Part shown: in pieces, positions 29,730-56,707 of the stretch
How positions within the stretch are numbered: the stretch's first letter is position 1
Layout of the letters: each line of letters opens with the position of its first letter
Source: Geothrix sp.
Lineage (GTDB): Bacteria > Acidobacteriota > Holophagae > Holophagales > Holophagaceae
Direction: 5' to 3'
Length of the DNA: 64,000 bases
Assembly (NCBI GenBank): GCA_019449415.1
Contig: JAGRPP010000011.1
Coordinates: 1 to 64,000, forward strand
Position numbers and translations under genes: made by a program
The notes under the pieces: model-generated
What the model saw: the letters and a program-made list of their open reading frames with translations, nothing else
Told to the model about the DNA's origin: nothing
Databases searched by the model: none

Positions 29730-29753
29730 TCACTTCAAGAAGGGGGGTGGAAT

Positions 29754-29825
29754 GATCACAGGCCGGGCTTGGCCCGGCCTGTGATCGGGAGTCCCGGGGG
29801 TGTGCGCGTAGCGCGGAACCCCCGG
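29754..29825. repeat. Palindromic repeat family P: hairpin plus core element
   Basis: Two units. 29754-29786 is a perfect 15-bp stem (arms 29754-29768 and 29772-29786, loop TTG) with core GGCCGGGC/GCCCGGCC. 29794-29825 is the core element: outer stem CCGGGGGT/ACCCCCGG enclosing an inner GCGC-GTA-GCGC hairpin. It lies between rpmA and obgE and may tune read-through; no T-run is present. Confidence 0.85.
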
Positions 29826-29832
29826 ACAGCAT

Positions 29833-32176: not shown

Positions 32177-32316
32177 CCGGGGGTGTGCGCGCAGCGCGCC
32201 CATAGATCCCCGCCACGCATGCGTGGCGGGGGAACCCCCGGAGAGCAAAGCGATGCCCGGCTATGCCGGGCATCGCGCGGGGGTCTGGGGGTGTGCGCGC
32301 AGCGCGGAACCCCCGG
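32177..32316. repeat. Composite palindromic repeat cluster (family P), one copy nested
   Basis: Three units between convergent genes. (1) 32177-32241: a core element (outer stem CCGGGGGT/ACCCCCGG, inner GCGC-GCA-GCGC) whose right part is interrupted by CCCATAGAT plus a perfect 24-bp palindrome at 32208-32231 (half CCCCGCCACGCA). (2) 32250-32276: perfect 12-bp stem GCGATGCCCGGC with loop TAT. (3) 32285-32316: an uninterrupted core element ending six bases from the next stop codon. GAGAGCA follows both core copies. Confidence 0.88.
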
Positions 32317-34945: not shown

Positions 34946-36253
34946 TCAGCGCGGTTTCGGGTGCCGGCCTTGGCCTTCCCTTACCAGCTGGCCGCAGGCT
35001 CCGGCCACATCCTGCCCGCGGCTGCGGCGGACGCTGACGGGCAGCCCCGCATCCGAGAGCAGCCGGCAGAGCGCGCCGACGCGGGACTCCTCCGGGGGCT
35101 CGAAGCCGCTGCCCTCGTGCGGATTGAACGGGATCAGGTTGATCTTGGCGGGGAAGCGACGGGCGAAGGCGGCCAGACGGCGGCCATCCTCCAGGCTGTC
35201 GGTGACGCCCTTCAGCAGCACATATTCGAGGGTGATGCGCTCGCCGGACTGCAGGGGGAAGGCCGCGAGCGCCGTCGCCAGGGCCTCCAGGTTCCACATC
35301 CGGTTCACGGGCATGATCAGGGAGCGGTGGATGTCCGTGGTGGCATTCAGGCTCAAGGCCAGCCGGGGCCGGCGGGCGAAGGCGCCCAGGCGCTCGATAC
35401 CGCTCACCAGGCCCGAGGTGGAGAGGGTGATGCGCCTCGGCGGGATGGCCAGACCCTTGGGATCCGTCAGCGGACCGAGGGCGGCCATCACATGATCGAG
35501 GTTGTGCAGGGGCTCCCCCATGCCCATGAACACCAAGTTGACGGGGCGCTCCGCGGGATGGCCGTGGTGGTTCAGCATGGCCACGACCTGGCCCACGATT
35601 TCCGCCGCGCTGAGGTTGCGGATGATGCCCATCCGGCCCGTGGCGCAGAAGGTGCACCCCATGGCGCAGCCCACCTGGCTGGAGAGGCAGAGGGTGACGC
35701 GGTCGAGGTCTTCAGGGTCCAGGACCGAGGGTGCAGGTCGCAGACCGGATCCCCGGACGGAAAGGCCGGGGACAGGCTCGGCCTGGCCCGGGCGCGGGGG
35801 CTCCGGGGGTGTAGGTCGCAGACCGGATCCCCGGACGGAAAGGCCGGGGACAGGCTCGGCCTGGCCCGGGCGCGGGGGCTCCGGGGGTGTAGGTCGCAGA
35901 CCGGGCCCCCGGACGACATAGGGCATGTGGACGCCCTCGACCTGCTTCCCGTCGGCGAGCTCGAACACATGCTTGGTCGAACCATCGGAGGAGGGCTGGC
36001 TCTGCGCGATGGTGGGCCAGGCGAGCTCTACCTCGGCCGCCAGGCGGGCCCGGAGGGCCTGCGGCAGGTGGGTGAACTGCTCCCAGCGGGTCCAGCGCTG
36101 CCGGTAGAGTCCCTCGAACAGCTGCGCCCCCCGCCAGGCGGGCTCGCCGAAGGTCGCGACCAGGGCCTTCAGGGCCGTCAGGTCCAGGCCCGCGGCGTTG
36201 GGACGCGGCGCCGAGCCGGCTTCGGGGGCCGGGAGATCCCAGGGCTGAACCAT
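34946..36253 (-). CDS. rlmN: 23S rRNA/tRNA adenine-C2 methyltransferase with in-frame repeat insertion
   Basis: Radical-SAM methyltransferase of A2503 of 23S rRNA and A37 of some tRNAs. 435 residues. The [4Fe-4S] motif is GCAMGCTFCAT (Cys196, 200, 203); GMGEPLHNLD, RRITLSTSG and the C-terminal GQDVAGACGQL with the second catalytic Cys are intact. Between the strand VEGVHMP (about 105-111) and DRVTLCLSSQVGC (from about 184), where relatives have only a few residues, lie about 67 residues made of a 26-residue unit repeated about 2.5 times (starting VRGSGLRP and ending PVPGLS). This Pro/Gly-rich insert sits in the loop before the radical-SAM barrel and appears tolerated, since all catalytic motifs remain. 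Confidence 0.93.
   Translation of the reverse strand: MVQPWDLPAPEAGSAPRPNAAGLDLTALKALVATFGEPAWRGAQLFEGLYRQRWTRWEQFTHLPQALRARLAAEVELAWPTIAQSQPSSDGSTKHVFELADGKQVEGVHMPYVVRGPGLRPTPPEPPRPGQAEPVPGLSVRGSGLRPTPPEPPRPGQAEPVPGLSVRGSGLRPAPSVLDPEDLDRVTLCLSSQVGCAMGCTFCATGRMGIIRNLSAAEIVGQVVAMLNHHGHPAERPVNLVFMGMGEPLHNLDHVMAALGPLTDPKGLAIPPRRITLSTSGLVSGIERLGAFARRPRLALSLNATTDIHRSLIMPVNRMWNLEALATALAAFPLQSGERITLEYVLLKGVTDSLEDGRRLAAFARRFPAKINLIPFNPHEGSGFEPPEESRVGALCRLLSDAGLPVSVRRSRGQDVAGACGQLVREGQGRHPKPR
35731..35913. repeat. 78-bp tandem repeat (family P) inside rlmN
   Basis: Units begin at 35731, 35809 and 35887 (third partial), period exactly 78 bp, near-identical. Each unit contains CCGGGGGTGT or a variant, an inner GGTC-GCA-GACC hairpin and CCCCGG, matching the intergenic element design at 29794 and 32285, and a linker GCGCGGGGGCTCCGGGGGTG that parallels GCGCGGGGGTCTGGGGGTG at 32275. 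78 is divisible by three, so the rlmN frame is kept. Confidence 0.92.
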
Positions 36254-47103: not shown

Positions 47104-48411
47104 ATGTTCAAGCGAGCTGCCTCAAAACTGTACAACTGGGTCGCGCTCATGATCGTTCTCGGCGCGCTGCTGGGGCACTTCTACCCCAGCGTGGCCGTGA
47201 AAATGCAGCCCCTGGCCGACGGCTTCATCGCCCTCATCAAGATGCTCATCCCGCCGGTGATCCTCTGCAGCGTGGTGCTGGGCATCGCGGGCTCCGGCAG
47301 CATCAAGAAGGCCGGGCGCGTGGGCGGGAAAGCCATCCTGTACTTCGAGATCGTCAGCACGCTGGCGCTGGTGATCGGCCTCGTCATGGCCAATGTGTTC
47401 GGGCCCGGACGGAGCTTCCACGCCGACCCCTCCAAGCTCGATCCCAAGCTGGTGGCCGGCTATGTCGCCCAGGCGCAGCACCTGACCATCTCGGATCACC
47501 TCCTGAAGATGATCCCCAAGACGATGTTCAGCGCGTTCACCGATGGCGACATCCTCCAGGTGCTGCTGATCTCCGTGCTGCTCGGGTTCTCCGTCGCGGC
47601 CCTCAGCGAGAAGCACAAGGCGCCCCTCATCGGCTTCCTGGAGAATGTCAGCAAGATGTTCTTCGGCGTCATGCACCAGATCCTCTACCTCGCTCCCATC
47701 GGCGCCGGTGCCGCCATCGCCTACACCATCGGCAAGTTCGGCCTGAAGTCGCTGATCCCCATGGCGCAGCTCATCTTCCTCTTCTACGCGACCTGCGCCG
47801 TCTTCATCTTCCTCGTGCTGGGGCTCATCGCCCGGCTGGCGGGCTTCAACATCTTCAAGGTGGTGGGCTACATCAAGGACGAGCTCCTGCTGGTCATGGC
47901 CACCAGCTCTTCCGAGTCCGCGCTGATCCCCCTGATGGAGAAGATGGAGAAGCTGGGCCTCTCCAAGTCCATCGTCGGGCTGGTGATTCCCACCGGCTAC
48001 TCGTTCAACTTGGACGGCACGAACATCTACATGACCCTGGCGTCGCTGTTCATCGCCCAGGCGCTGGGCATCGAGCTCACGCTGGGTCAGCAGATGGGCA
48101 TTCTCGTGGTGGCGATGATCACCAGCAAGGGGGCCGCTGGCGTCACCGGCTCCGGGTTCATCACCCTGGCCGCCACCCTGGCGGTGGTCCCCGGCATCCC
48201 CGTGGCCGGCATGGCCCTCATCCTCGGCATCGACAAGTTCATGTCCGAGGCCCGCGCCATCACCAACCACATCGGCAACTGCATTGCCGCCGTCGTGATG
48301 GCCAGCTGGGAGAAGGAACTGGACTGGGACACCTTCCACGCCACCCTGGGACGGTCCAAGGTCGCGGCTCCCGTAGCTGAAGTGCCGGTCCTTGCGAGCG
48401 AAGTGGAGTGA
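47104..48411 (+). CDS. Dicarboxylate/amino-acid:cation symporter (DctA/GltP family)
   Basis: 435 residues from ATG 47104, eight bases after AAAGGA; an in-frame ATG at 47074 lacks a ribosome site. DAACS family hallmarks: [14 protein letters not shown], the serine-rich re-entrant loop [36 protein letters not shown], and [14 protein letters not shown]. The family imports C4-dicarboxylates or glutamate/aspartate with H+ or Na+; the neighbouring CitA/DcuS-like kinase argues for dicarboxylates. Its last 46 codons have a near-identical copy at 50366-50506. It is followed by a terminator. Confidence 0.92.
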
Positions 48412-50365: not shown

Positions 50366-50506
50366 ATCGGCAACTGCATCGCCGCCGTGGTCATGGCCAG
50401 CTGGGAGAAGGAACTGGACTGGGACACCTTCCACGCCACCCTGGGACGGTCCAAGGTCGCGGCTCCCGTAGCTGAAGTGCCGGCCCTCGCGAGTGAAGTG
50501 GAATAG
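50366..50506 (+). pseudogene. 3' remnant of a second DctA/GltP-type symporter gene
   Basis: 141 bases, colinear with 48271-48411 through the stop codon. Within 46 codons there are seven substitutions, six of them synonymous (one Val-to-Ala), and the stop is TAG rather than TGA. This pattern says the copy was once part of a working paralogue. The 5' nine tenths are missing and the frame is broken at the junction with 50283-50365. Confidence 0.85.
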
Positions 50507-56503: not shown

Positions 56504-56512
56504 TGTTCTTCT

Positions 56513-56707
56513 CCGGGGGTCCCCCTCGCAACGCATGCGTTGCGAGGATCTAGGGTCGCGCTGCGCGCCTCCACCTGACGCCACGCAGGGCGTGGCTCCC
56601 ACTCGCCCTTTGGGCTCGTGGAGATGGAGACTCCCCCCGGAACCCCGCGCTCAGCCCGGCAAAGCCGTGCCTCGCTGAGTCTTCTCCGGGGGGCTCGCGC
56701 TGCGCGG
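56513..56707. repeat. Composite palindromic repeat cluster (family P), inverted
   Basis: Downstream of ppk1, running opposite to the 32.2-kb cluster. 56524-56547 is a perfect 24-bp palindrome (half CCTCGCAACGCA), followed by ATCTAGGGT and GCGCTGCGCGC, the inverse of CCCATAGAT and GCGCGCAGCGCG at 32.2 kb. A second core-like unit CCGGGGGGCTCGCGC ends near 56707. In between are further hairpins, e.g. CCACGC/GCGTGG (56581-56595). It lies 9 bases after the ppk1 stop and about 50 before mrp. Confidence 0.85.

Follow-up and report, generated by a model that had tools for sequence, protein, structure and literature searches.

The rlmN gene of this Geothrix sp. contig, lying within the 64,000-nucleotide stretch that we analysed (the window), carries in frame what is very probably a coding copy of a REP-like, bipartite palindromic family of Holophagaceae with a 78-nt unit, which landed in a loop of RlmN and afterwards changed in unit number. 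The insert belongs to a family of dispersed elements, occupies one site in RlmN, and differs in both presence and copy number between species. In-frame coding palindromes are best known from Rickettsia, where an odd, decaying genome can be blamed; the Geothrix family is found in Acidobacteriota that are free-living and GC-rich, and alleles of one gene that are filled, half-filled or empty are available in culturable species (Geothrix fermentans and G. limicola, as well as G. fuzhouensis for a second gene, encoding an ABC ATPase). This allele series makes testable both the route to new sites without a known transposase and the neutrality of the added peptides, and nature offers a ready-made experiment in the changing number of 26-residue units within an enzyme that modifies the ribosome.

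The rlmN gene of the window contains an in-frame tandem array

The whole array lies inside a single open frame on the minus strand (34946–36253), whose 435-aa product scores above the curated RlmN cut-off (TIGR00048: 318 bits against 290). Tandem Repeats Finder reports a period of 78, 2.4 copies and 96% matches, a strength that no other array of the window approaches, and between the two full units there are 2 mismatches in 78 positions, in agreement with an earlier reading of the sequence alone (the sequence-only reading), which had described about 2.5 near-identical, in-frame copies of a 78-bp unit. The features of the gene are as follows:

34946–36253, minus strand: rlmN, dual-specificity 23S rRNA A2503 / tRNA methyltransferase, 435 aa, carrying the insert
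35725–35915, minus strand: tandem array of 78-bp palindromic units, in frame, 2.4 copies (hairpin 1 three times, hairpin 2 twice)
35840–35918, minus strand: unit 1, the 5'-most in the gene, abutting CTA in place of a stop codon (CCCTA/TGTCGTCCGGGGG)
35762–35840, minus strand: unit 2, full length, E 6.9e-8 with a covariance model made without rlmN copies
35881–35912, minus strand: hairpin 1 of unit 1, nested, with outer stem CCGGGGG and inner stem GGTC-TGC-GACC
35803–35834, minus strand: hairpin 1 of unit 2
35725–35756, minus strand: hairpin 1 of the third, truncated unit
35844–35870, minus strand: hairpin 2 of unit 1, the variable hairpin (CCCGGGCCAGGC-CGA-GCCTGTCCCCGG)
35766–35792, minus strand: hairpin 2 of unit 2

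Between the VEGVHMP strand and the radical-SAM core, the RlmN of the window has a loop of 76 residues, against 6 (Y[X]DRVT) in insert-free relatives. The insertion proposed earlier is therefore real, with its size corrected from about 67 added residues to a net gain of about 70. Residues C189, C196, C200, C203 and C420 are invariant across 35 aligned RlmN sequences, in keeping with the claim that all catalytic cysteines remain; matched to the E. coli residues, we take these to be the Fe-S motif cysteines and the two catalytic cysteines. The assembly that contains the window (G000) is 64% complete at 2.15 Mb; two near-complete relatives also carry the array, which makes an assembly artefact unlikely. 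Downstream of rlmN, trmD and rplS follow on the same strand. Elsewhere in the window, a 137-bp direct repeat (48271–48407 and 50366–50502, 96% identical, 2.1 kb apart) is unrelated to the palindromes.

The insert belongs to a dispersed family of bipartite palindromes

Related elements lie between genes of the same window:

29753–29831, minus strand: intergenic family member, 1 nt past a TGA stop; absent at the orthologous place in locus L148
32247–32322, minus strand: intergenic family member, beginning immediately behind the upstream gene's TAA stop; missing from the orthologous place in loci L148 and L185
32179–32239, minus strand: second intergenic copy, damaged, with another palindrome (CGCCACGCATGCGTGGCG) nested within hairpin 1
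56507–56678, plus strand: weak, probably composite member (E 0.084), its hairpin 1 holding about 109 nt of other palindromes, followed by linker and hairpin 2

The rlmN unit and the first two of these follow a common plan: a CCGGGGG outer stem, a 4-bp inner stem with a TGC loop, a CCCCCGCGC linker, a second hairpin and CTTT. We built a covariance model, R1, from 40 intergenic copies of many species, which align without gaps across 78 columns, and excluded the rlmN copies. Within the window, R1 found 32322–32247 (E 3.6e-15), 29831–29753 (E 1.3e-14) and the rlmN unit at the E value listed above; since a model made from intergenic copies finds the rlmN unit, the insert belongs to the dispersed family, and the likeness to the window's intergenic palindromes that had been noted from the letters alone is confirmed. 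With the covariance model under stricter filters, all 47 Geothrix genomes of our genus set contain family copies, at 4 to 51 per genome.

The consensus structure has an 8-bp outer stem, a 4-bp inner stem and a 13-bp second hairpin. In the 40-copy alignment, 95.7% of the cells at stem positions are paired, as compared to 81.0% in shuffles and 30–50% in neighbouring registers, and two-sided (compensatory) changes number 129 against 35.7 in shuffles. The element thus consists of a conserved nested hairpin and a hypervariable 13-bp hairpin, the latter kept by compensatory changes. A single unit does not fold with lower energy than its shuffles; as the unit is GC-rich, fold energy was not used as evidence and the structural case rests on covariation.

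A search of the genome for the exact 78-bp unit and its core, as suggested earlier, located them only within rlmN, with diverged relatives of the same design elsewhere. Across 84,980 genomes the exact core was found in 16 stretches, 15 of them from Geothrix, Holophagaceae or Acidobacteria and one a short actinobacterial match, and an exact 28-mer of the intergenic core is present in 37/47 Geothrix and 0/30 sister-genus genomes. Strict restriction to the genus was nevertheless rejected, with only the sequence type being genus-bound: the covariance model gives matches at E <= 1 in 18 of the 30 sister-genus genomes (best 6.7e-11, in a genome with 56 matches), so the element class is older than the genus Geothrix. 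One such relative, from another genus (locus L242), has an inner stem like that of rlmN and follows a TGA stop. Neither a known RNA family (no Rfam family at gathering score) nor a viral origin (no match of the 28-mer in 2.9 million viral contigs) was retained. The sequence-only reading had proposed an independent family able to enter coding sequence without breaking it; the family is indeed genus-wide, unmatched in Rfam and in frame in rlmN, but its invasion of coding sequence is exceptional, with one coding place among the 19 matches of G007, a complete genome of the window's own species.

Could the array be an ordinary intragenic minisatellite, arisen by local duplication of a GC-rich stretch in rlmN and resembling the intergenic repeats by chance or composition? 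The repeat is tandem, in frame and variable in copy number, and within the genome its exact unit is indeed confined to rlmN. However, a model without rlmN copies scores the rlmN unit at E 6.9e-8, nested hairpin, linker and 13-bp hairpin come in the same order in both, sister species and genera lack the insert, and a closely similar unit occurs in the ABC ATPase gene described below. The R1 match and the second invaded gene bring this explanation close to refuted, and we regard it as very improbable.

Two further observations concern the family at large. A second palindrome type (CGCCACGCATGCGTGGCG then GGGATCTA...) is nested in hairpin 1 of several copies (window 32179–32239 and 56507–56678; G007 loci L281, L291, L293 and L295), as if palindromes insert into palindrome loops. 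Furthermore, a related but longer element gives 56 matches at E <= 1 in one genome of sister genus g4 (G052; e.g. locus L239), where the class may have a more active branch.

Elements normally lie directly behind stop codons

The normal site of the element is intergenic, directly behind a stop codon, and coding sites are the exception. Among 73 first copies in the fetched loci, the stop of a long upstream ORF lies exactly 8 nt before GGGGGT in 36 and within 60 nt in a further 18, the element facing the sense strand; the opposite strand has no stop-codon peak in these 73 copies. The stops adjoining the 36 docked copies are 27 TGA, 8 TAA and 1 TAG. With TAG making up 26% of long-ORF stops in the same loci (Fisher p 7e-4 for the depletion), its near-absence means that T(G/A)A is either part of the element's left end or selected by it. 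Of the 19 matches in G007, those inspected include no coding place other than rlmN; G000 has 13 matches, two of which are rlmN units.

Hairpin 2 is nearly perfect in most copies, and the three bases that follow it are TTT in 20 of 40, the T-run being short. Some species have the element at a gene end where others, at the orthologous end, have a different terminator-like hairpin instead. Stop docking, together with a second hairpin that changes fast yet is always complementary, suggests a tie between mRNA 3' ends and the spread or function of the element, and we infer that intergenic copies may contribute there to termination, protect the 3' end or slow the ribosome as it terminates.

Presence and length of the rlmN insert vary among Geothrix species

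Alignment of rlmN from relatives, the check proposed earlier, revealed that the insert is not common to all. The site is filled in 14 of 45 Geothrix RlmN, with a net gain of 18 to 94 residues, and empty in 31, where the loop is either Y[X]DRVT itself or an equally long variant with one letter changed; the number of units in the gene ranges across species from 0 to about 3.5. The unit is lacking from all 24 RlmN of sister genera, which are empty, so the empty state is ancestral. In sister genus g6 (locus L247), this loop of RlmN is lengthened by a short sequence of another kind (YPPRGVHAPAPGRVT), and the site may tolerate other insertions.

Two genomes of the same species, G000 (76 residues) and G007 (50 residues), are exactly one unit apart in rlmN, and units within one genome have private variants in common (EPVPGLS in G000, EPDPGLS in G017), indicating recent duplication or homogenisation. 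The near-identity of the copies had been read as a sign of continuing expansion. The array is still changing, as the one-unit difference within a species attests, but near-identity reflects recent tandem duplication or homogenisation and not recent dispersal.

On an rlmN tree built with the insert left out, the filled state changes 11 times, with at least six changes forced by well supported branches, and filled and empty alleles form sister pairs (e.g. G020/G022 and G015/G030). All filled alleles have one common site, a Leu before DRVT (DWVT in one allele) and an element-derived Y(V/A)(V/A)RG start. The common site and the Leu point to one origin of the insert; one origin with a patchy distribution in turn needs loss or exchange.

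Loss would dominate if the insert entered rlmN once in early Geothrix and descended vertically, with gain and loss of units, many independent precise losses and no present mobility, a scenario to which we give a substantial chance while not holding it probable. It agrees with the common codon, start and Leu of all inserts, and a clean loss route is possible: judging by the near-repeats TCGTCCG at the left end and TCGACCG in the right flank, recombination would delete the insert and restore a 6-residue loop, Y(V/A)DRVT. The number of changes on the tree, at least six of them forced, argues against it, as do the 31 empty loops, each of exactly six residues and devoid of any remnant, set against the ragged decay inside filled alleles. 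Exchange, that is passage of the insert-bearing allele between Geothrix species by short-tract homologous recombination, appears rather unlikely to us, if plausible in outline. It would fit a patchy distribution with a common derived flank, and over the 60 nt directly upstream of the insert, filled alleles resemble one another more closely than expected from overall identity (the best of 33 windows; 0/300 permutations); yet no other window, and nothing on the downstream side, shows such an excess, and rlmN itself unites sister pairs, G020/G022 among them. We also rejected the horizontal spread of rlmN as a long tract, as a broad flank signal is missing and at most a short tract is common to the filled alleles. 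The insert may have come into rlmN a single time, with loss or exchange afterwards, and not by repeated invasion; no mobilising enzyme was found. Comparison of filled and empty sites disclosed neither a recognisable target-site duplication nor MITE-type terminal inverted repeats.

A second gene carries the element near its 3' end

In several species, an ABC-transporter ATP-binding protein gene adjoining a permease gene contains one to four units near its 3' end, and in others none; the unit is closely similar to that of rlmN. These two are the invaded genes found in the genus. Empty alleles of the ATPase gene end roughly 5–12 codons further on with a stop of their own, which places the insertion upstream of the stop, and stop-codon readthrough into a downstream element was rejected on this account. 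Spacing is 78 bp in 15/15 intervals of coding arrays and 78, 79, 80, 82 or 83 in non-coding arrays (multiples of three in 10/22), intervals of one array not being independent. At the ATPase/permease junction of Acidobacteria bacterium ADurb.Bin340 (locus L122, 2860–3190) we observed a 118-bp repeated unit, every copy of which comprises the element, the ATPase stop and the permease start codon.

Hairpin 2 is maintained in rlmN and the added peptide is predicted to be disordered

In the rlmN arrays, hairpin 2 varies from species to species, yet its arms match their own partners at 11.0/12 positions, as compared to 9.5/12 for swapped arms (0/5000 permutations as high; a statistic restricted to the hand-picked hairpin 2), and complementarity is also evident in a seven-sequence count. 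The sequence changes in hairpin 2 alter the peptide (QTQAQPESG, QGQAQPAPG, QRQAQPASG); because complementarity persists while the peptide changes, it is the nucleic acid and not the peptide that is being kept, either by selection or by template-switch correction.

Such maintenance would be expected were the rlmN palindrome kept for a function, as an intragenic terminator or a translation-coupled attenuator of downstream genes. The position of trmD and rplS downstream on the same strand is compatible with this, and ribosome stalling has been reported for REPs within 15 nt of the stop codon (PMC12306157). Most species, however, lack the insert and have no obvious substitute, and template-switch correction or homogenisation could also keep the arms complementary; we therefore think a function in rlmN unlikely.

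AlphaFold applied to 35 RlmN yields a model with a confident core (228 residues with pLDDT >= 90) matching E. coli RlmN (3RFA/5HR7) and a Sphaerobacter homologue, with residues 116–176 at pLDDT < 50 between strands 104–113 and 183–190. The insert is thus predicted to be a floppy, disordered surface loop in a beta hairpin. It would be tolerated because 78 nt equals 26 codons, the GC-rich unit is stop-free in the frame used, and the peptide forms this predicted disordered loop.

Proposed origin and comparison with known systems

The case for mobility of the element comes from its presence and absence between species, a comparison of sequences, and the route by which it spreads is one that we infer. 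In our preferred reading, that of a REP-like element copied into rlmN, a normal copy would sit directly behind a TGA or TAA stop on the sense strand as a double-hairpin mRNA 3' end, composed of the conserved nested hairpin, the linker and a fast-evolving, terminator-like 13-bp hairpin. Elements would be copied to new places by some process other than a recognised transposase; one copy would have landed in the beta-hairpin loop of RlmN, and unequal recombination or slippage would then have altered the number of units. A RAYT-driven REP was rejected, given that the Y1_Tnp transposase (PF01797) occurs in 5 of the 47 genus genomes, is found in none of G000, G007, G017 and G020, and is thus missing from the window's own species and most of the genus. 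More speculatively, and we would put it forward as a doubtful extension, the element may be a mobile 3'-end cassette, site-specific at TGA/TAA stops, that carries or reuses the stop and brings its own double-hairpin terminator; rare mis-insertions into coding sequence would be exact and precisely removable, so that one rlmN codon would be repeatedly filled and emptied between species.

Rickettsia palindromic elements (RPEs; Ogata 2000, 2002) are dispersed palindromic repeats found in frame in protein genes, where they add a peptide to an apparently functional protein; nearly half of the 44 integrations of the first report are in ORFs (PMC10969869). By sequence comparison, the Geothrix element appears to behave alike in rlmN (14/45) and, in several genomes, in the ABC ATPase gene, and by AlphaFold its insert, too, would lie at the protein surface and be compatible with the fold. 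While RPEs enter many unrelated genes, the Geothrix element has one coding place among 19 G007 matches and two genes in the genus; furthermore, its 78-nt unit is bipartite, stop-docked and tandemly amplified, a contrast drawn from published descriptions of RPEs.

REPs of the GTAG and CGTC super-families are likewise stem-loop repeats, mostly intergenic and close behind gene 3' ends, with some intragenic copies. In some cases a GTAG REP provides the flanking ORF with its stop codon, and some REPs lie wholly inside ORFs and can be grouped there (PMC3733652), so that this kind of element is already known. A REP, however, is a single palindrome of 20–40 bp with an unpaired GTAG or CGTC tag, whereas the Geothrix element spans 78 nt, has two hairpins of which the second is hypervariable, starts with TGYTSTCC and lacks a fixed GTAG/CGTC tag (CGTC in a minority only), and most genomes have no RAYT; its copy number is 4–51 per genome by the strict model search. 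With intrinsic terminators and hairpin clusters it has in common two adjacent hairpins directly behind the stop (PMC8355165), but its first hairpin is a conserved repeat, found behind many genes and present or absent at orthologous places, docking is precise to a single nucleotide and the T-run is short. MITEs with in-frame fusions are also short, non-autonomous repeats able to add codons to genes; unlike them, the Geothrix element has no recognised transposon terminal inverted repeats or target-site duplication. New here are a bipartite design whose second hairpin is hypervariable, docking to the stop with single-nucleotide precision, the avoidance of TAG and tandem growth in frame. A full-text literature search for Geothrix palindromic repeats returned nothing relevant, and the family is apparently undescribed.

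Finally, at the gene end bearing 29753–29831 (loci L171, L185 and L132), hairpin 2 is identical in G007 and the distant species G006 and G001, and G000 differs, with compensation, from its conspecific G007, which hints at between-species exchange at element sites.
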